In this document: positions 4,221 through 64,000 of the stretch, piece after piece
How positions within the stretch are numbered: position 1 is the stretch's first letter
Layout of the letters: every line of letters begins with the position of its first letter
NCBI GenBank assembly: GCA_016926625.1
Contig: JAFGOE010000107.1
Span: forward strand, 1 to 64,000
Direction: 5' to 3'
Source: Candidatus Zhuqueibacterota bacterium
Lineage (GTDB): Bacteria > Zhuqueibacterota > Zhuqueibacteria > Thermofontimicrobiales > Thiofontviventaceae
DNA: 64,000 nt
The notes under the pieces: model-generated
Database searches by the model: none
Told to the model about the DNA's origin: nothing
What the model saw: only the letters and a program-made list of their open reading frames with translations
Made by a program: the position numbers and the translations under genes

Positions 4221-5936
4221 ATGCTAAAAACGTTACAAGTCGAAAAATTTGCTCTGATAGACCGTATTGATGTCGATTTTTGCGACGGTCTGAATATTAT
4301 AACCGGTGAGACAGGAGCCGGGAAATCGATACTCATCGGCGCGCTCGGATCGACTCTGGGCGAGAAGGTCGATGGCGATGTACTGAGAAAGGGTAGTCAG
4401 AAGGCGATCATAGAGGGCATGTTCTCGTATGGCCACATCTCAGAGATCGATGATATTTTACTGCAGAACGAGATCGATTTGATTCCGGACAAAACGGTCA
4501 TCTTAAGGAAAGAGGTGCATCAATCGGGACGCAACAGGGCATTTGTCAATGATACGCCGGTAACGGTCAATGTCTTAACCGAGATCGGAGATCTTTTAGT
4601 CGATTTACACGGACAACATGACCATCAGGCGTTATTAAACGGACGATATCACATTCAATATCTGGATGATTATGGTCATTACGCCGATTTATTGCATGAG
4701 GTCGCCGAAAGTCATCGCGACCTCATGAAATATGAGCATGAGCTGCAAGATTTAGTGCAAAAGGAGCAATCGCTTCGAGAAAAAAAAGAATTGTATCAAT
4801 TTCAACTGCGTGAGATCAATGCGATAAATCCTCAACCCGGTGAAGAAGAGGAGTTAATTCAGGACGAGAAAATTTTAACACATAGTGAGAAACTGTTTGA
4901 AGCGACCAATACACTGTATGAGAAGTTATACGGCATGGATGGCTCCGCATTCGAGATTATTTCCGAAGCCCATGATACGTTAACCGAACTGAAGCAAATC
5001 GATGCTAAATTTGGTGATTTTATAACAGATATTGCGACTTCAAGGATCACCATTGATGAGTTGGCAAAGTTTTTGCAGAGTTATAACGCATCGGTCGAAT
5101 TTAATCCAGCTCGATTGGAGGAAATTCGTGAACGTTTGGTTCAATTTTCGCGCTTGAAGAAGAAATTTGGTGCTTCGATACACGATGTATTAATGCATCG
5201 TGATCGATTGGTTAAGGAGCTGGGCCAAATAGATAATCTTGATACGGAAATGGAGCGACTCAGACGAGAGGTATCAGATCAGCGATCAAAATTTTCTCTG
5301 TTATGTGAACGGTTATCGAGGCAGAGGAGGGAGGTCGCATCTGAATTAGAGCGCGTTGTAACCGATGTTTTGCATGAATTAGGGATGCCGGCCGCACGAT
5401 TTAAGGTGTCGATCGATGCAGTGGAAGATGACGATGGGATCGTCGTGTTGGAAAAGAAGTGCTTTCGGGCGAATCATCTGGGTATGGATCAGATCGAATT
5501 TCTCATTTCAGCCAATACGGGAGAAGATTTAAAACCGCTCGTCAAAGTTGCTTCGGGCGGAGAAATATCCAGGGTCATGCTGTCTATCAAATCGGCTCTG
5601 GCACAGGCGGACAGGGTACCGGTATTGATTTTTGATGAAATAGATAACGGTGTATCCGGAAGGATAGCTCAGGCGGTCGGAAGGCGGTTGCGGAAACTGG
5701 CGAGGACGCATCAAATTATTTGTATTACGCATCTGCCTCAGATCGCGAGTATGGCAGACCATCATTTTGTCGTAGAAAAATTCACTGACAATGACCAGTC
5801 GTTTACCAGAATCAGGAAATTACAGCCAGATGAACAGGCGTTTGAGGTCGCCAAATTAATGGGGGGAGAGGTCATTTCAGAGGCGCAATTGGAAGGGGCA
5901 GTTGAATTGATCAGAGAGGCACGGGGATTGTCATAA
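4221..5936 (+). CDS. recN: DNA repair protein RecN
   Basis: 571 residues, the usual RecN length. RecN is an SMC-like ATPase that acts in the cytoplasm on double-strand breaks together with RecA. The N-terminus reads LKTLQVEKFALID followed by Walker A GETGAGKS (about residues 30-37). A Q-loop region GQHDHQALL follows, then a central coiled coil (about 150-390). The C-terminal half has the signature VASGGEISRVMLSIKSAL, Walker B VLIFDEIDNGVSGR, and the D-loop/H-loop segment ending in ICITHLPQIASMADHH. The gene follows the membrane glycosyltransferase by 7 bp. No LexA box is evident nearby. All catalytic motifs are intact. Confidence 0.96.
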   Translation: MLKTLQVEKFALIDRIDVDFCDGLNIITGETGAGKSILIGALGSTLGEKVDGDVLRKGSQKAIIEGMFSYGHISEIDDILLQNEIDLIPDKTVILRKEVHQSGRNRAFVNDTPVTVNVLTEIGDLLVDLHGQHDHQALLNGRYHIQYLDDYGHYADLLHEVAESHRDLMKYEHELQDLVQKEQSLREKKELYQFQLREINAINPQPGEEEELIQDEKILTHSEKLFEATNTLYEKLYGMDGSAFEIISEAHDTLTELKQIDAKFGDFITDIATSRITIDELAKFLQSYNASVEFNPARLEEIRERLVQFSRLKKKFGASIHDVLMHRDRLVKELGQIDNLDTEMERLRREVSDQRSKFSLLCERLSRQRREVASELERVVTDVLHELGMPAARFKVSIDAVEDDDGIVVLEKKCFRANHLGMDQIEFLISANTGEDLKPLVKVASGGEISRVMLSIKSALAQADRVPVLIFDEIDNGVSGRIAQAVGRRLRKLARTHQIICITHLPQIASMADHHFVVEKFTDNDQSFTRIRKLQPDEQAFEVAKLMGGEVISEAQLEGAVELIREARGLS

Positions 5937-5994
5937 TGGCTACAGCGGCCGATGAAATTATTTTGCCCGGCATGGTCAGTGTATTTCATTACAC

Positions 5995-6023
5995 TTGATA
6001 TAATTTTAAAATTTTACTATGAA
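5995..6023 (+). promoter_or_regulatory. Sigma-70-like promoter for the TPR protein gene
   Basis: TTGATA at 5995-6000, 17-bp spacer, TATGAA at 6018-6023, in an AT-rich 137-bp gap. The start site would be near 6030. It matches the architecture of the promoters at 439, 28880, 34718 and 42877. Confidence 0.45.
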
Positions 6024-6076
6024 AATTATATAAAATTTATTATCTTTAATTTGATGTGTTAAGAAGGAGATAAGTG

Positions 6077-7126
6077 ATGAGTGACAGCAAAACACTATTG
6101 AAATCATCGATTATATCCATCATCATCGTGGTTATAGGATTCTTTATGCTGTGCGTAAGCAACGCGCCCAGAGTTAACCTCGATGAGCAGTTAGTGGATA
6201 CCGGTGCAGGAGATTCGAGTACAGAGGAGATGACGGACGATGAGTTTATGAATTTACTCGAGTCGGCTGATAACGAAATATCTAAAGACGACAGCAAAGA
6301 GCAGAAGACATCGGAATCGATCCTGTTGGGAGAAGGCGACCAGACGACCACGAGTGAAGATCAGGATCTGGCTGATCTGTTCAGTTTACTAAATTTAAGT
6401 GAAGATGACATCGCGGAAACTGGCAGTGATTCATATGCGGATGTGTCGTCGAGTTCAGGTGAGGATGAACTGCAAAAATTGCTGTTCGAGACAGATGACG
6501 GCGGAAGTTCGACGGAGATGATGGGACAGGTGACAATAACCGAACTGAATACTGAAGTTAAACGTTTGGAGCAGATCGCCGAAACAAAGGACAATGAAAT
6601 TCTCAGTTTGAACCAGGCGATCAGGGAGTATGATCAGCAGATCGCTCAATTAGAGGACACCGGTTATTACCCGGGAGGAGGGAGTAATTATGCTACCTAT
6701 ACTAATCCCGAAGCCGGAGAGACCACGATTGAACTAAACGATGAATTCGATAATGTGTCAGGTTTTCAGGGGCGCTATGATACCGCATTGAACTATTTCA
6801 ATAATCGACAGTACAGTCAAAGCATCAATGCATTTAAACGGCTTCTGGAACAATATCCAAATAACAAACTCTCGGATAACTGTCAATATTGGATCGGTGA
6901 GTGTGAATTTGCCCGCGGTAGATATGCACAGGCTATAGTCGAATTTCAGAAAGTATACTCTTACGATGCAACGGATAAATGGGACGATGCTCAGATTATG
7001 ATGGCGCTCGCCAACATGAAAATGGGGCAGAACACGCTCGCGAAGAGAGAGCTTTCATGGTTTTTCGCGTTTCATGAGAACAGCGAATATTATTCAAAAG
7101 CCAGATATTATTACAACGGACTATAA
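6077..7126 (+). CDS. Membrane-anchored coiled-coil TPR protein, YbgF/CpoB-like
   Basis: 349 residues from the ATG at 6077; a GTG sits directly before it, but AAGGAG at 6064-6069 gives 7-nt spacing to the ATG. Order of parts: one membrane helix near the N-terminus (SSIISIIIVVIGFFMLCV), a long acidic Ser/Asp/Glu-rich linker, a coiled coil (about 150-195), and tandem TPRs in the last ~130 residues (YDTALNYFNNRQYSQSINAFKRLL-type repeats with LSDNCQYWIGECEFARGRY). This layout is that of YbgF/CpoB, a periplasmic protein linked to the Tol-Pal system and septal peptidoglycan synthesis. No tol or pal gene is in the window, so the link rests on architecture only. A possible alternative is a generic cell-envelope TPR scaffold. 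Confidence 0.7.
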   Translation: MSDSKTLLKSSIISIIIVVIGFFMLCVSNAPRVNLDEQLVDTGAGDSSTEEMTDDEFMNLLESADNEISKDDSKEQKTSESILLGEGDQTTTSEDQDLADLFSLLNLSEDDIAETGSDSYADVSSSSGEDELQKLLFETDDGGSSTEMMGQVTITELNTEVKRLEQIAETKDNEILSLNQAIREYDQQIAQLEDTGYYPGGGSNYATYTNPEAGETTIELNDEFDNVSGFQGRYDTALNYFNNRQYSQSINAFKRLLEQYPNNKLSDNCQYWIGECEFARGRYAQAIVEFQKVYSYDATDKWDDAQIMMALANMKMGQNTLAKRELSWFFAFHENSEYYSKARYYYNGL

Positions 7127-57205: not shown

Positions 57206-57568
57206 ATGAGTAAGGACAGAGTAGAAGAATTCCAGGAGACGAGAAAGCGGTTAAATGACATCGTCATGGAATACGCCCAACTGGAAACCAAACGGTTTTT
57301 CAGTCTGGATTCACAGGTCTATCGCGCCGGTGCTTTATCTTCGAAAATGAAAGAATTAATGGGCCTGGTGGGTTCTATGGTGCTGCGCTGCGATGATTGT
57401 ATCACCTATCACATCACCCGTTGTTTTGAGGAAGGGGTAAGCAGTGAGGAGTTGGAAGAGGCGTTATCCATTAGTTTAATTATCGGAGGATCGATCGTCA
57501 TACCGCATCTGAGAAGAGCGTTCGAGACATGGGATGAACTGATGAAGAAAAAGGTGTATCGTGTATGA
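57206..57568 (+). CDS. AhpD-like carboxymuconolactone decarboxylase family protein
   Basis: 120 residues. The CMD/AhpD fold is recognised by KMKELMGLVGSMVLRCDDCITYHITRCFEEGVSSEELEEAL. The CxxCxxxH motif (CDDCITYH) is that of the redox-active AhpD branch rather than of decarboxylases. Such proteins reduce peroxides or serve as thiol relays in the cytoplasm. Its stop overlaps the start of the GAF gene (ATGA), so the two are translationally coupled and probably work together against oxidative damage. Confidence 0.85.
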   Translation: MSKDRVEEFQETRKRLNDIVMEYAQLETKRFFSLDSQVYRAGALSSKMKELMGLVGSMVLRCDDCITYHITRCFEEGVSSEELEEALSISLIIGGSIVIPHLRRAFETWDELMKKKVYRV

Positions 57569-58041
57569 ATGAAATGGAATTGAAATTCGAGCAAATTTTA
57601 GGGGACATAATCCGTTTTTTACAAACCAGTAAGGATAGGGACAGCGCTTTATTTTACATATGTGATACATTGAAGCGTGAGATCGATCATTATGACTGGG
57701 TTGGTTTTTATCTGGTGGACGACAGCGACAAACGTATGTTGTATCTGGGTCCGTACGCCGGAGCGGCAACCGAGCATGTGAGAATTCCCTTCGGCAAAGG
57801 AATTTGCGGACAGGCTGCTGAGAAGCGACGCACTCTGGTGATTCAGGATGTCTCTGCTGAGGGCAATTATCTCTCCTGTAGTCCGATCGTGAAGTCGGAG
57901 ATCGTCGTACCTATATTTCGAGGCGACGAATTGATCGGTGAGCTGGACATCGATTCACACAAATTATCTCCATTTACGGCTGCGGACAACCGATTCACAG
58001 TAAAGCTGTGTCAGTTGGTGGCGGAGCACCTGTTTTCCTGA
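57565..58041 (+). CDS. GAF-domain protein, probable free-methionine-(R)-sulfoxide reductase (fRMsr)
   Basis: 158 residues, one GAF domain, matching the size of E. coli YebR/MsrC (about 165). It shares the pattern YDWVGFYL, IPFGKGICGQAA, SEIVVPIF and GELDIDS. Relative to my recollection of the three fRMsr cysteines (84, 94, 118 in E. coli), Cys81 corresponds to Cys94 and Cys105, 24 residues later, to the catalytic Cys118. The Cys84 position is His71 here, so only one resolving cysteine remains. The enzyme would reduce free methionine sulfoxide. Overlaps the AhpD-like gene. A plain signalling GAF protein is the alternative. Confidence 0.7.
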   Translation: MNEMELKFEQILGDIIRFLQTSKDRDSALFYICDTLKREIDHYDWVGFYLVDDSDKRMLYLGPYAGAATEHVRIPFGKGICGQAAEKRRTLVIQDVSAEGNYLSCSPIVKSEIVVPIFRGDELIGELDIDSHKLSPFTAADNRFTVKLCQLVAEHLFS

Positions 58042-58159: not shown

Positions 58160-59491
58160 TTGAAATTTCCAAAAAATTTTATTTCCGGATCAAGTTTGAT
58201 ATCCGGTTCAGTCGTTATTGTCATCGCCGCGTTAATAATCTATATGTTCACACCGGTCGGTAATTACGATCAGATCGGTGATTCGGTTGTAAAATTATAT
58301 CTTGCCGACAACATATCGCCTGCTCATGAGATTATAATTCAAGCGTTTAATACCGAATATCAGGGTGAAATCGAGTTAGTCCCGATAAACCTCCCTTTCT
58401 CCAAGTTCAGCACGAATGAAAGAAAAGAGCTGCTCGCGAGAACGTTACGCAGCCAGAGCAATCGCATCGATCTGTTTACAGTCGATTTGATCTGGGTCCC
58501 TCGATTCGCGCGGTGGAGCCAACCTTTGGACAGTGTATTCACGAGCGATGAGCGAGATCGGATACTCGAGCCGGCGTTGTATTCATGTTACTTCAATGAT
58601 CGATTGTATGCGATACCACTCTATTTCGATGTGTCGTTGATGTACTATCGTAAGGACATCGTGGCCAGGTTGACAGATAGTGAAGGCGTGATTGAAAGAT
58701 TAGAACGTTCGATGACATGGGAGGAGATGATCGAATTATGCAGACAATTCCCATCGCATCATGGCTATCATTTTTTGTTTCCGGCAAATAATTTTGAAGG
58801 TCTTGTGTGTTGTTTCCTCGCCGGACTCGAGAGTCAGGGTGCGTCTATTTTTTCGGGTGACTCCATTCAGTTATGCACGAAAGAGGCGGAACGTTCGTTG
58901 CAGATATTAATCGATTTGGTCAACAAATACCAGCTAACCCCATCTCTTGTCACCAAATGCAATGAATATCAATGTTATTTGAAGGCGAATCAGGAGGATG
59001 CGATCTTCTTCCTGGGATGGCCGGGATTAAAAAAGTATTTTGAAGGTTTTATAGGACATCCTGAACGGGCGGAAAACCTTGGAATCGCAGCTCTGCCTCA
59101 TTTAGACGGAGGGGTGCCGGCACATGTGTATGGCGGATGGAATCTGATGGTATCGAAGCACACAGACTATTTTGATGCTGCTATCCAATTTATACGATTT
59201 GTTCAACGACCTGAAAATCAGAAAATTTTATATAGCCTTTGCGGCTATCTGCCAGTTATTAAGGAGGTCTACACGGATTCGGCATTTGTGGCGGAGGAAC
59301 CGGATCTGGCTTATTATCAGTACCTGTTGAGGATGGGATTTCATCGACCTTATTTGACGGATTATACTAAGATCTCGGACTATATATCGTATTATCTGAA
59401 TTTAGCGATTAAAGGAGAAATGAGCGCGACCAACGCGCTGACGAACGCGACTAAATCGATCAACTCGGATAAAATCATAAGTAATTATTAA
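58160..59491 (+). CDS. Membrane-anchored family 1 extracellular solute-binding protein
   Basis: 443 residues from TTG 58,160 (GAGGTG 8 nt upstream). An N-terminal hydrophobic helix (about 14-30) with no lipobox would anchor it to the inner membrane facing the periplasm. The rest has the SBP_bac_1 pattern: VVKLYLADNISPAHEIIIQAFNTEY, DLFTVDLIWVPRFARW, YAIPLYFDVSLMYYRKDIV, MTWEEMIEL, HVYGGWNLMVSKHTD and ENQKILYSLCGYLPV. These proteins bind sugars for ABC importers, but no ABC permease or ATPase gene is nearby. It is followed by a sensor kinase (16 bp) and a response regulator, so I infer that it is a receptor for the kinase. Confidence 0.85.
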   Translation: MKFPKNFISGSSLISGSVVIVIAALIIYMFTPVGNYDQIGDSVVKLYLADNISPAHEIIIQAFNTEYQGEIELVPINLPFSKFSTNERKELLARTLRSQSNRIDLFTVDLIWVPRFARWSQPLDSVFTSDERDRILEPALYSCYFNDRLYAIPLYFDVSLMYYRKDIVARLTDSEGVIERLERSMTWEEMIELCRQFPSHHGYHFLFPANNFEGLVCCFLAGLESQGASIFSGDSIQLCTKEAERSLQILIDLVNKYQLTPSLVTKCNEYQCYLKANQEDAIFFLGWPGLKKYFEGFIGHPERAENLGIAALPHLDGGVPAHVYGGWNLMVSKHTDYFDAAIQFIRFVQRPENQKILYSLCGYLPVIKEVYTDSAFVAEEPDLAYYQYLLRMGFHRPYLTDYTKISDYISYYLNLAIKGEMSATNALTNATKSINSDKIISNY

Positions 59492-59507
59492 ATGAAGTTG
59501 GCTTATT

Positions 59508-60986
59508 ATGGGTGCTAACGTTCCGACAGTCGAAAATAAGTATCATTTCAAATTAAAGCATCTTTTTGCTCTGCTGGCCATTCTGGTTACCTTTCAGATT
59601 TTAGTCTCGCTTGTACATAGGCTGTCATTAAAGAACTTAATGCTCAAGACACAAGGGTGGTATCAACAAGATTTTGCAGAACGACTGGCTAATTTAACCA
59701 CGACTTCTCTCGAAATGCTCATGGAGACGACGCTATATGATCAAACCGGAGAGCATGCGGATACGACGAAGATCGTCAAGGCGTTCAACATCATTCTCAC
59801 ACAACAACTACTACAACATCATGTGGAAGAGGTGTGTATATTAATTTGCAGAGATGATTCGATTTACGCCATTGATAACGGACATATCTTGTTTTCCTAT
59901 ATCATGCATCCTGAGCGGCGACTCGAAGCAGGGGCACAGAGACATATGCAAGCGGTTAAGATGTACCGGGAGAATCGAAGTGAGATCATACGGACTGAAC
60001 AGATACTCAGCATTGTGGAACAGGAGCAGATCTTCCATGTTCTGGTACCACTGGTGCCCAAAGGTGAGTTTTTTGGCGTCGTTTACGTGAAGAGCAAGCC
60101 GGATTTCGGTTTTATGACGAGGGGAATCATTTCGAGTTACGACGAGTCGAGTCTGATCTTTACAGCCCTTATCCTGTTCGGATTATTAGCGATGTTTTAT
60201 ATCAGTACCTATACGGTGCGAGAGAGAAACGAGGCGCAACGATTATTATACGAGGAGAAGACGAAGCAGCTCACAGAACACATTAATCTGCAGAAGGAGG
60301 CGTTGTTCGCTAAACGCATCTATCACACCCACCACAAGGCTGAAAAGGTCATGGGATTCATCAAAGAAGATTTGCATGATTTGAATGAGAAAAATATGGA
60401 AGAGATCAAATATCGGGTGACCAAGTATGCAAACTTTATATCCCGGGTCATCTACGATATGAAATTATATGAACCTCCCCTGCAGACCATCCGTAATCCG
60501 ATCTTCAATACCGATTTAAATGAATTGATTCATTTCATCGTGGAGAACATATTCTTGCGGTTGTCGGCGAGTCGCGATATATTTAATTTTGACTTCGACT
60601 TCGATGAGCGTTTACCCTATGTCCACGTAAATGAATTCGTAGTCTGGGAGGTTATTGAACCGCTCATTCAGAACAGCATTGAGCATTCTGGAAAGGAACG
60701 CATCTCCATCGTTATTCAGACTCGTTTTGATGAGGAATCCGGAGAAATAAAGGTCAGGATCAGGGACAATGGAGTGGGTGTAAAAGAGGAGTTAATGCTG
60801 ACCAATGAGGATGGTATTAAGATGTTGTTTTTGGAAAATGTGTCCACCAAGACCAATGCGCAACAAAAAGGGTATGGTTGTTATATCGCCTATGAGATTG
60901 CCACTCAACGATGTGGTTGGCAGATCGATGTCCGCAATATAGAAACCGGGGGATGTGAATTCACCATTACAATACCCAATCTTTAA
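59508..60986 (+). CDS. Membrane-bound sensor histidine kinase
   Basis: 492 residues. Membrane helix 1 (about 17-37), a periplasmic sensing part (about 38-210), membrane helix 2 (about 214-236), then a coiled coil and a kinase core. The phospho-acceptor region KRIYHTHHKAEKVMGFIKEDL is unusual compared with the standard HExxxP box. The ATP-binding domain is normal: N-box EVIEPLIQNSIEHSG, G1 DNGVGV, G2 KGYGCYIAYEIA. The next gene is its likely partner response regulator. Its periplasmic half has no recognised PAS or Cache signature by eye; direct contact with the SBP encoded just upstream is proposed. Confidence 0.88.
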   Translation: MGANVPTVENKYHFKLKHLFALLAILVTFQILVSLVHRLSLKNLMLKTQGWYQQDFAERLANLTTTSLEMLMETTLYDQTGEHADTTKIVKAFNIILTQQLLQHHVEEVCILICRDDSIYAIDNGHILFSYIMHPERRLEAGAQRHMQAVKMYRENRSEIIRTEQILSIVEQEQIFHVLVPLVPKGEFFGVVYVKSKPDFGFMTRGIISSYDESSLIFTALILFGLLAMFYISTYTVRERNEAQRLLYEEKTKQLTEHINLQKEALFAKRIYHTHHKAEKVMGFIKEDLHDLNEKNMEEIKYRVTKYANFISRVIYDMKLYEPPLQTIRNPIFNTDLNELIHFIVENIFLRLSASRDIFNFDFDFDERLPYVHVNEFVVWEVIEPLIQNSIEHSGKERISIVIQTRFDEESGEIKVRIRDNGVGVKEELMLTNEDGIKMLFLENVSTKTNAQQKGYGCYIAYEIATQRCGWQIDVRNIETGGCEFTITIPNL

Positions 60987-61005
60987 GATGAATCGGATAT
61001 AAGAT

Positions 61006-62454
61006 ATGAGCACAATGAAAATCTCTGTATTACTGATTGAGGATGAAGAATTTGACGTGCAGCGGATTCGCAGAACCATTAATCCGTTCAAACATCGCAT
61101 CATCATAGAAGATGTTGTAGCAAGTGGTATTTCTGCGGTTGAATTGCTTGAAAAAGAGACACATAAATATGATGTCATCATCATGGATTATCAGATTGCG
61201 GGTGGGCTTATGGGAGAGAATCTCATCAGGCGCATAAAAGAGATTAACCCGTTGTTGCAGATAATCGTCGTTACTAAGATGACTATCAATATGACTGATT
61301 ACGATTTTGCCAACCGGATGCTGGAAGCAGGGGCGACGTGGTATTGTACGAAATATCCAGGCGATATCGAGGAGTTCATTTATCAACCTACCGATTTTAT
61401 TTTAAACATATTCAATGCCTGGGAAAAGAAGAAACTGGAGACCGAAAAAATACATTCCAAACGCCAGTTACAGCAGAATATCGATGATATCCTGAACCGG
61501 AATCAAATCATCGGCAGATCTAAAGCCATCACAACGCTAAAGGAGCAGATCCGTCGGTTTGCAGGTTCTGATGTCACTGTTATCATACGTGGCCCTTCAG
61601 GCACCGGGAAGGAACTCGTCGCCACGCATATCCATTATCATGGTAAACGAAAATTTGAAAATTTTATTCCGATCAACTGCGGCAGTTTACCTGACAACCT
61701 CATCGAAAGTGAACTGTTTGGTTTTGAAAAAGGGTCGTTTACCGGTGCGAATAAAGATAAATTAGGACTTTTTGAGGTGGCCAATAGAGGTACTGTATTT
61801 CTTGACGAGATCACAGAGCTTCCTTATACACTTCAATCGACGTTGCTCAGAGTGATACAGGAGGGAGAGATCGATAAGATCGGCCGTACTAAAAAAGTGG
61901 AAGTGAAGGTTCGTATCATCGCTGCTACGAACAAAGATTTGGAGAATGAGGTAAGAGAAAAACGTTTCCGCGAGGATTTGTATTATCGATTAAATGTCGT
62001 ATCCATTCCTATTCTGCCGCTGGAGCAGCGTAAAGAAGACATTCCGTTATTGATCGATCACTTCATGTCCCGGTTCGGCAGGGACATGAACAAGGAGATC
62101 CCGGAGATATATGCTGAGGGGTATCATGTGTTGAGTCATTACAAATGGCCGGGCAATGTCAGGGAACTTCAAAATGTGGTGCAACGATTATTATTTTTGA
62201 ATAAAAGAAGAATTGTTGAAAAAGATGTTTATATGGCCCTTGGCGTGAGAATCGATACCGATGAGACCAGGGATGTGGAAGCAATCGGGATATCGTCTGA
62301 GATAATTCCATGGCGTGACAAAGAACGGCGATTGAAACGGCAATATTTTGAACACGTCAGACAGCACACGTCGTCTGATGCCGAAGCGGCGCGGAAGCTG
62401 GGTCTGGCTCCTCCAAATTATTATCGCATGTGTAAAGAGCTGGGGATAAAATGA
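61006..62454 (+). CDS. Sigma-54-dependent response regulator, NtrC family
   Basis: 482 residues in three parts. Receiver domain (about 5-130): LLIEDEEFDVQRIRRTI, phospho-acceptor Asp61 in IIMDYQIAGG, and Thr/Lys in VVTKMT. AAA+ domain (about 160-400): IIGRSKAITTLKEQI, Walker A GPSGTGKE, FEKGSFTGANKDK (GSFTGA variant of the sigma-54 contact loop), Walker B GTVFLDEI, and sensor/arginine-finger region REKRFREDLYYRLNV. C-terminal Fis-type helix-turn-helix: SDAEAARKLGLAPPNYYRMCKELG. It should activate transcription from -24/-12 promoters. The nearest such site is 376 bp downstream, in front of the symporter gene. Confidence 0.96.
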   Translation: MSTMKISVLLIEDEEFDVQRIRRTINPFKHRIIIEDVVASGISAVELLEKETHKYDVIIMDYQIAGGLMGENLIRRIKEINPLLQIIVVTKMTINMTDYDFANRMLEAGATWYCTKYPGDIEEFIYQPTDFILNIFNAWEKKKLETEKIHSKRQLQQNIDDILNRNQIIGRSKAITTLKEQIRRFAGSDVTVIIRGPSGTGKELVATHIHYHGKRKFENFIPINCGSLPDNLIESELFGFEKGSFTGANKDKLGLFEVANRGTVFLDEITELPYTLQSTLLRVIQEGEIDKIGRTKKVEVKVRIIAATNKDLENEVREKRFREDLYYRLNVVSIPILPLEQRKEDIPLLIDHFMSRFGRDMNKEIPEIYAEGYHVLSHYKWPGNVRELQNVVQRLLFLNKRRIVEKDVYMALGVRIDTDETRDVEAIGISSEIIPWRDKERRLKRQYFEHVRQHTSSDAEAARKLGLAPPNYYRMCKELGIK

Positions 62455-62715
62455 AGGGATGAGGATCCGATTTGCTAAATGGAATGACGTATGAGGCCGA
62501 TGGCGCTTTCACAAAGGAATATATAGATATGGATGCGGCGTGAGATGGTCGAAACGATTCCGGTGAGCATGTGGGCAATCGAGTCTGTAATTGAAAGATG
62601 ACGGCAAAGGCCAACAGCAAGATTCATAGTCTAAAGCGTAAAATAATAGTCATAAACTGGGGATTTGACTAAAGCGGACTTTGAAAAAATGATTATATGT
62701 TATTGTTTTAATAAT

Positions 62716-62736
62716 TTATTATTAATCTAATAATAA
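62716..62736. promoter_or_regulatory. Candidate enhancer site 1 for the NtrC-type regulator
   Basis: Perfect inverted repeat TTATTATTA-ATC-TAATAATAA, 9-bp arms with a 3-bp centre. Its centre is about 104 bp upstream of the GG of the -24 element. In such AT-rich sequence, chance palindromes are common, so the case rests on position. Confidence 0.45.
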
Positions 62737-62738
62737 AA

Positions 62739-62757
62739 TATTATTGAATTAATAATA
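62739..62757. promoter_or_regulatory. Candidate enhancer site 2 for the NtrC-type regulator
   Basis: Perfect inverted repeat TATTATT-GAATT-AATAATA, 7-bp arms with a 5-bp spacer. It shares the TTATT / AATAA half-site core with site 1 and is centred 22 bp further downstream, i.e. about two helical turns. Confidence 0.4.
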
Positions 62758-62829
62758 AGAGAGCTTTCGATTTATGAAAGGGGTGATATAATTAAATAAT
62801 AAACAATAACTTGTAAATATATATGATTT

Positions 62830-62845
62830 TGGTATGTTTGTTGCA
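62830..62845 (+). promoter_or_regulatory. Sigma-54 (-24/-12) promoter of the symporter gene
   Basis: TGGTAT, 5 bp, TTGCA at 62,830-62,845. It has the invariant GG and GC elements at the exact 10-bp separation and a full TTGCA -12 box; only two of the -24 positions (C to T) depart from TGGCAC. Transcription would start near 62,856, 22 nt before the TTG start codon. Confidence 0.7.
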
Positions 62846-62877
62846 TTATTGTAACGAACATAAAATCGGGGTCAAAT

Positions 62878-64000
62878 TTGCATCAATTTCCGATGTTCGA
62901 TCAGATCATAATTCTTTCCTATCTGTCAGTAATTCTCGGAATAGGATTTTACATTTCGAGATTTGAAGGGGATGAGAACGATTATTTCCTGGCGGGCAGG
63001 CGTATGAGATGGATGACCATCGGTGCTTCGCTTTTCGCAGCCAGTGTTTCGGGTGAGCATTTTATCGGACTATTCGACCTTGGGGCAATATATGGTTTTC
63101 AATTCGGCCATATCGAATTGATCTCATGTTTTATGTTATTGATCCTCTGTTACTTCGTATTACCCATCTATTTAAGAGCCGGCATCTCTACTGTTCCTGA
63201 ATATTTAGAAAAACGTTTCAGCAAACCGAGCCGTATATACCTCAATGTTATTTCAATGTTTACCTATATAGTGACAAAGATATCCGTCACACTCTTTGTC
63301 AGCGGATTCTTATTGCATAAAATATTGGGTTGGGATATTAGTAAGTCAGCGATCATAATCATCATCGTCTCCGGGATGTATGCGATCCTGGGAGGATTCA
63401 AGACGATTATCAAGATCGATGTCATCCAATCGGCGGTGTTGATCTCCGGTATGGTTCTCCTGATGATTTTCAGCGTAAAGGCGATCGGTGGTTTCAATGC
63501 TCTGCAGTCAGCGGTTCCCGGTGAATATCTATGTATCTGGAGCAGGCAGAGGTTAGATGATCTACCGCTGGCGGGTCTTATCGTTGCCATACCGATCATC
63601 GGATTTTGGTATTGGTGCACGGATCAATTTATCGTGCAGCGAGCCTTAAGCGGTAAAACGGTACAGGACGCACAGCGTGGTACCATTCTGGCTGGATTTT
63701 TCAGAGTATTGCCGATATTTTTCTTTCTCTTACCCGGAATGATATCTCATGTCGTGTTACGACCTGCGAACGGGAACGGAAGTTTTATTTTCGCCACCCT
63801 GGTGATGAGTCAGATAATACCCACCGGTGTAAAAGGTCTGGTAGTGGCTGGTTTATTAGCCGCATTGATGTCCTCCCTGGCGAATGCGTTGAATGCCTGT
63901 TCCGCCCTGTTCACCCTGGATCTCTACAAACAGCTCAAACCGGGTGCAAGAGGAAGTGAGCTGGTTTTGGTGGGACGGTTAATCACGACTGCACTCGTCA
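62878..64000 (+). CDS. Sodium:solute symporter (SSS family), N-terminal part, cut by window end
   Basis: 374 codons are visible and the frame is open at the window edge. The start is TTG 62,878 with GGGGT 5 nt upstream; ATG 62,893 is the alternative. The protein reads as an SSS/SGLT transporter: helix 1 DQIIILSYLSVILGIGFYISR, then DYFLAGRRMRWMTIGASLFAASVSGEHFIGL (the usual YFLAGR..W..IG.SL.A...S), STVPEYLEKRFSKPSRI, YAILGGFKTIIKIDVIQSAVLISG, and FWYWCTDQFIVQRALSGKTVQDAQRGTILAGFFRVLP (usual YWxxxQxxVQRxLaakn). SGLT-like members carry sugars with Na+. Driven by the sigma-54 promoter just upstream. Confidence 0.93.
   Translation, partial: MHQFPMFDQIIILSYLSVILGIGFYISRFEGDENDYFLAGRRMRWMTIGASLFAASVSGEHFIGLFDLGAIYGFQFGHIELISCFMLLILCYFVLPIYLRAGISTVPEYLEKRFSKPSRIYLNVISMFTYIVTKISVTLFVSGFLLHKILGWDISKSAIIIIIVSGMYAILGGFKTIIKIDVIQSAVLISGMVLLMIFSVKAIGGFNALQSAVPGEYLCIWSRQRLDDLPLAGLIVAIPIIGFWYWCTDQFIVQRALSGKTVQDAQRGTILAGFFRVLPIFFFLLPGMISHVVLRPANGNGSFIFATLVMSQIIPTGVKGLVVAGLLAALMSSLANALNACSALFTLDLYKQLKPGARGSELVLVGRLITTALV

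Follow-up and report, generated by a model that had tools for sequence, protein, structure and literature searches.

A predicted binding-protein-dependent sugar sensor linked to sigma-54 promoters of symporter and glycan-degradation genes in a Candidatus Zhuqueibacterota bacterium and its relatives

The DNA considered here, henceforth the window, comprises bases 1-64000 of a 79,516-base contig (JAFGOE010000107.1) from the 3.6 Mb assembly, in 134 contigs, of a Candidatus Zhuqueibacterota bacterium. At its 3' end lie the genes for a solute-binding protein (SBP), a membrane histidine kinase (HK) and an NtrC-type response regulator (RR), separated by 16 bp (SBP-HK) and 19 bp (HK-RR), followed by a sigma-54 promoter and a gene for a sodium:solute symporter of the SSS family (Table 1). 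This layout had been proposed in an earlier note on the same sequence, with which the coordinates, the Pfam matches and the promoter match agree. On the basis of sequence comparisons, the three proteins very probably constitute a three-component sugar sensor working like PgtC/PgtB/PgtA, which would drive the symporter and a glycan regulon via a palindromic operator and sigma-54.

Table 1. Coordinates, in the window, of the genes, motifs and regulatory sites of the predicted sensor system
Feature	Position	Strand	Remarks
SBP	58160..59491	+	443 aa; trehalose/maltose-binding-protein type; predicted sensor component; Pfam SBP_bac_8 1.6e-16, SBP_bac_1 3.2e-15
N-terminal transmembrane anchor of SBP	58181..58249	+	residues 8-30; modelled helix; no lipobox
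Membrane HK	59508..60986	+	492 aa; HATPase_c 2.6e-13; periplasmic domain ~residues 40-212
HK candidate phospho-acceptor box YHTHHK	60321..60338	+	residues 272-277; invariant His
NtrC-type RR	61006..62454	+	482 aa; REC + Sigma54_activat 3.5e-68 + C-terminal helix-turn-helix
RR sigma-54 contact loop GSFTGA (GAFTGA variant)	61732..61749	+	read from translation
Operator (upstream activating sequence) copy 1, TTATTGTTTTAATAA	62700..62714	+	palindrome search
Operator copy 2, TTATTAATCTAATAA	62719..62733	+	palindrome search
Operator copy 3, TTATTGAATTAATAA	62741..62755	+	74 bp before -24 element
Sigma-54 promoter TGGTATG-TTTG-TTGCA (-24/-12), TGGTATGTTTGTTGCA	62830..62845	+	sole perfect window match; position kept in relatives
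SGLT-type SSS symporter	62878..64000	+	SSF 4.6e-58; runs 503 bases beyond window; 541 aa when complete

In a comparison set of 60 genomes, which includes that of the window, strong matches to the SBP were recovered in 23, and an independent search with the HK recovered strong matches in the same 23 genomes, along with one 63-residue fragment in another. A public genome collection also yielded 28 loci with the SBP, and the named records carrying the system that were encountered there were all metagenome-assembled genomes or unisolated bins. Wherever a locus offered sufficient sequence the order was SBP, HK and RR, with gaps mostly below 50 bp or slight overlaps. Pairwise distances among the three proteins correlate at 0.86-0.89, a value that partly reflects shared species history. 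Their genes thus appear as adjacent and co-inherited as in SBP-dependent three-component systems of the PgtCBA/AioXSR kind. Apparent overlaps hinting at SBP-HK fusions in two loci (L039 and L055) were rejected, as in our reading they stem from over-long start choices. One genome (G002, contigs C800 and C516) encodes two SBP-kinase pairs, the second being more divergent, with 43-46% identity to that of the window.

The SBP gave a profile match to 1EU8 at 4.1e-70, and its AlphaFold model (pLDDT 90.5) recovered 1eu8 and 6dtq as best Foldseek matches, placing the fold nearest to the trehalose/maltose-binding proteins. Alignment with 41 relatives, to which it is 36-52% identical, showed that R88, D157, W327 and R396, corresponding to R49, D118, W287 and R356 mutated in a solved series of alpha-glycoside-binding proteins, are invariant across the 42 sequences of the family. 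The fold and the predicted ligand-contact residues of disaccharide/oligosaccharide-binding SBPs of the trehalose/maltose type are conserved, and the SBP is thus predicted to keep a disaccharide-type sugar pocket, in line with the earlier suggestion of a sugar-type protein. All members of the family further retain a hydrophobic N-terminal helix devoid of a lipobox (the lipobox pattern is absent in 43 of 44 members, and its single match falls within the hydrophobic helix). This agrees with the transmembrane anchor noted before and fits a membrane-tethered receptor.

The kinase core of the HK matches the folds of WalK/YycG and ZraS, and a Pfam search yielded no HisKA match in the protein. H273, H275 and H276 are invariant in 38 sequences, the phospho-acceptor being only a candidate among them. 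The order of strands and helices in the periplasmic domain (~170 residues) suggests a Cache-like fold; the matches listed by a Foldseek search aimed at identifying the domain were to the kinase core. In the RR the acidic pocket of the REC domain (E12/D13, D61, T90 and K116) and the Walker A motif are conserved across 31 sequences. The predicted phospho-accepting aspartate of the REC domain, the AAA+ core with Walker A, the GAFTGA-like loop and the predicted sigma-54 promoters of its targets together mark it as an NtrC-type sigma-54 activator, and rpoN is present in the genome. Against the PgtA equivalog model the RR scored 90.5 bits, below the curated 650-bit cut-off, by which it is not a PgtA orthologue. 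Its contact loop reads GSFTGA where GAFTGA is usual; in the family the flanking positions are conserved, and the second position of the loop lies outside the conserved columns.

The intergenic region downstream of the RR gene contains the regulatory elements that tie the triplet to its predicted targets. The window holds one perfect match to TGGYAYRN4TTGCW, where 0.08 are expected, and a significant sigma-54-like site occurs in 21 of 31 gaps following the RR gene versus 2 of 45 regions preceding the SBP gene. A chance origin of the site was rejected given its conserved position and this upstream control, and the low count upstream of the SBP gene also led us to reject sigma-54 autoregulation of the triplet. 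A blind count of dyads in the gaps after the RR gene recovered TTAT-N7-ATAA in 19 of 21, with shuffled sequences reaching at most 6. The refined palindrome, TTATYRNNNYRATAA, is often paired at a distance of 19-23 bp and lies upstream of the sigma-54 site. Its three copies in the window, where 0.3 are expected over the whole length, had been overlooked in the earlier note. Such a tandem array occurs once in the 3.6 Mb genome, beside this RR gene, and tandem operators are found in 18 of the 23 genomes with the system as against 1 of the 37 without it (p = 6e-10), the reversed pattern giving no matches across the 60 genomes. Single operators number 44 in the SBP-anchored loci versus 2.0 expected. 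The spacing between the last operator and the -24 element clusters near 50, 62 and 74 bp, with a periodicity of 9.5-13 bp that exceeds 99.9% of random draws and a best period of ~12 bp, slightly more than one helical turn; this is expected if activator and polymerase must share a fixed face of the DNA.

Across the collected loci 46 distinct sites combine the operator with a sigma-54 element. The first recognizable gene downstream encodes an SSS symporter in 15 of them, and at the remaining sites a TonB receptor (5), a glycoside hydrolase (GH) of families GH3 (5), GH5 (5), GH9 (2) or GH16 (2), a protein with CBM9 or the C-terminal tail of the type IX secretion system (T9SS) (7), or nothing recognizable (5). 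Four of the CBM9/T9SS matches start 1.4-1.5 kb downstream and therefore belong to the second gene. Some of the target loci were chosen by their operator and some query proteins come from these same loci, so that matches at 100% identity are those of a query to itself; Pfam confirmed the classes. In two loci (L118 and L119, ~5240-6950) the operator and sigma-54 site are followed by an unclassified first gene and then by a CBM9/T9SS-like match. SSS genes number ~14 in the genome of the window, well below 1% of its genes, versus one third of the operator sites. The operator-linked SSS genes of five genomes (G001, G002, G011, G026 and G042) lie on contigs other than that of the SBP, but with assemblies this fragmented some could still be close by. 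The link to the symporter is convincing because many operator sites lie away from the RR gene; via sigma-54 sites, such distant copies precede GH3, GH9, GH16 or CBM9/T9SS genes as well as SSS symporter genes. The symporter itself scored 258.5 bits against TIGR00813 (cut-off 184) and has human SGLT1 and SGLT2 and vSGLT as nearest solved structures (SGLT1 at 3e-95), and is thus predicted to be an SGLT-type sugar symporter. The connection drawn earlier between regulator and symporter stands in so far as conserved operator and sigma-54 sites precede SSS genes, also away from the RR, and a lack of co-conservation between symporter and regulator was not seen; it has to be widened in that the symporter is just one target among GH, CBM9/T9SS and TonB genes. 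The regulon as a whole appears to be one of glycan degradation and uptake, with predicted SSS symporters, secreted GH3, GH5, GH9 and GH16 enzymes, CBM9/T9SS proteins and TonB-dependent receptors.

Taken together, these observations point to a mechanism in which the anchored SBP would capture a periplasmic oligosaccharide, most likely of the beta-linked glucan type or a chito-oligosaccharide, and, once loaded, would contact and activate its partner kinase. The kinase would then phosphorylate the RR, which may bind the tandem TTATYRNNNYRATAA palindromes and, with sigma-54, turn on the SGLT-type sodium symporter. In the family at large it may also switch on the secreted glycoside hydrolases, the CBM9/T9SS proteins and the TonB-dependent receptors. 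The parts of this scheme supported by the sequences are the gene order, the strict co-conservation, the operator and sigma-54 sites before the predicted targets, the intact sugar pocket and the lack of linked ABC (ATP-binding cassette) permeases in the stretches searched.

Several observations weigh against this scheme. The first downstream gene is unclassified at ~9 of the 46 sites, and the matrix used to score sigma-54 sites was home-made. The glycan chemistry varies by lineage (GH5, GH9, GH16 and GH3 elsewhere, GH18 and GH20 further downstream here), so that a single ligand may not fit all members. Five of the genomes bearing the system are devoid of a strict tandem operator and have a single copy in their RR gaps. 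The operator of the window sits in very AT-rich DNA, while GC-rich relatives retain the palindrome; these relatives (e.g. TTATCACCGTGATAA in L057) and the shuffles led us to reject an AT-rich artefact as its source. Finally, one genome (G035, 90% complete) has a tandem operator and an SSS gene with no SBP or kinase detected. There the tandem operator and a sigma-54 site stand ahead of the SSS gene (G035:C263:24738-24774, locus L117), and the SBP and kinase are perhaps missing from the incomplete assembly.

There is about an even chance that an oligosaccharide is sensed while the symporter carries another solute, for example a monosaccharide freed by the co-induced enzymes, which would alter only the last step of the above mechanism. 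SGLT-type symporters carry mostly monosaccharides, and the predicted pocket of the SBP resembles those of disaccharide binders, unlike the typical cargo of such symporters; likewise, monomers or dimers would be released by the co-regulated GH3, GH5 and GH9 enzymes. Also counted in this direction were the sugar contacts of vSGLT, tentatively mapped onto the symporter via SGLT1, of which the glutamate and lysine positions are identical and that of Q428 is not. On the other hand, some SSS proteins may accept disaccharides.

It is improbable that the SBP instead belongs, as an orphan binding protein, to an ABC importer encoded at another locus, with the neighboring two-component system being an ordinary one that senses by itself. 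The genome does encode ~15 ABC permeases elsewhere, and the solved proteins most closely related to the SBP work with ABC importers. However, a permease profile, trained on permeases of the same genome and recovering 14 of its open reading frames, detected none near the SBP here or in 62 related stretches totalling 752 kb, in agreement with the earlier note, which had regarded linked permeases as decisive against its proposal. Moreover, in at least two cases the permease clusters elsewhere have an SBP-like neighbor of their own, the SBP is accompanied by the kinase in 23 of 23 genomes, and the membrane anchor is retained throughout the family. A transport role for the SBP is thus unlikely. That a different regulator binds the palindrome while the RR acts elsewhere seems highly improbable: the assignment of the RR to the palindrome is our deduction, ~20 other sigma-54 activators are encoded in the genome and G035 has the operator without a detected sensor, but operator presence tracks the system over the 60 genomes and the tandem array of this genome stands solely beside this RR gene.

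As to the surroundings of the sensor system, the remainder of the symporter gene is followed past the end of the window, in the same direction, by genes for a T9SS-tailed CBM9 protein, a TonB-dependent receptor, a protein of 1171 aa lacking any Pfam match, a PorV-like protein, a T9SS-tailed GH18 protein, another SSS-like symporter and a GH20 protein. The gap preceding the GH18 gene is ~215 bp, and read-through from the promoter at 62830 is not implied. The GH18 chitinase, second symporter and GH20 genes are spaced by ~10-20 bp, forming a compact cluster of the chitin/N-acetylglucosamine type 3' of the module (L066:11984-16517, contig C127). Directly 5' of the module (window 57206-58041) a carboxymuconolactone decarboxylase-like gene overlaps a GAF-domain gene; both are apparently unrelated to it.

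The core idea of the earlier note broadly holds, with a wider scope than it proposed, but its view of an undescribed kind of module goes too far, as there are precedents in the Pgt, AioXSR and CuaDSR systems. The sensor of the Pgt system, PgtC, is likewise binding-protein-like. In Salmonella it senses 3-phosphoglycerate, and with the kinase PgtB and the regulator PgtA, which has a predicted sigma-54-contacting domain, it induces the transporter PgtP (PMC11077982). The combination of a binding-protein sensor, a kinase, a sigma-54-type regulator and a secondary transporter is thus shared. Unlike in the present case, Pgt responds to a phosphorylated metabolite, PgtP falls outside the SSS family and the Pgt regulon as described contains no glycoside hydrolases. 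In the arsenite-responsive AioX-AioS-AioR system (and Arx) a periplasmic binding protein acts with a kinase and an AtoC-type regulator binding upstream of an RpoN promoter (PMC5908839). This again combines a binding protein, a kinase and a regulator of RpoN promoters, but with an oxyanion ligand, a binding protein of another family and a respiratory oxidase as target. In CuaD-CuaS-CuaR of Ruminiclostridium cellulolyticum a dedicated sugar SBP binds its kinase, senses cellobiose and controls uptake genes for cellulose use (PMC10384115). The pairing of a dedicated sugar SBP with a kinase is the same, whereas CuaDSR is described as acting on an ABC importer and a phosphorylase, with neither SSS nor T9SS proteins among its targets. 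To our knowledge CuaR is not a sigma-54 activator.

ChiS of Vibrio is a chitin sensor linked to a chitooligosaccharide-binding protein. In GltB-GtrS-GltR of Pseudomonas aeruginosa a periplasmic sugar-binding protein is reported to feed a histidine kinase for sugar use (PMC7927077). Both resemble the present system in that a sugar-binding protein acts on a histidine kinase controlling sugar use. As far as we know, both differ in that the binding protein has a role in transport too, no such sigma-54 activator is involved and the gene order is another. In the polysaccharide utilization loci of Bacteroidota a glycan sensor (SusR, hybrid two-component systems or extracytoplasmic function (ECF) sigma factors) controls TonB-dependent receptors together with secreted glycoside hydrolases. 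Their cargo is similar, but the system of the window is predicted to sense via a separate anchored SBP and to transcribe via sigma-54 with an upstream operator. Sigma-54 control is itself known from the cellobiose phosphotransferase system operons of Firmicutes, and no description of an SBP-sensor-driven sigma-54 glycan regulon was found in the open-licence literature.

Thus, the architecture is already known, and the novelty lies in this family, in its operator and in its predicted regulon of symporters and secreted glycan-degrading enzymes. The predicted switch is conserved, as judged from the comparisons above, in uncultured bacteria of the KSB1/Calditrichota/Ignavibacteria type. If the proposed mechanism is right, its SBP would be a sugar-binding protein that left ABC transport for dedicated sensing, and a clear case of such a move, while the operator with its sigma-54 site would provide a sequence-readable rule by which glycan-use genes could be located in lineages that are largely uncultured. 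We lean towards the view that a whole branch of these bacteria runs its glycan degradation and uptake through a dedicated anchored SBP sensor, sigma-54 and an operator of its own, a different solution from the SusR, hybrid kinases and ECF sigma factors of Bacteroidota utilization loci.

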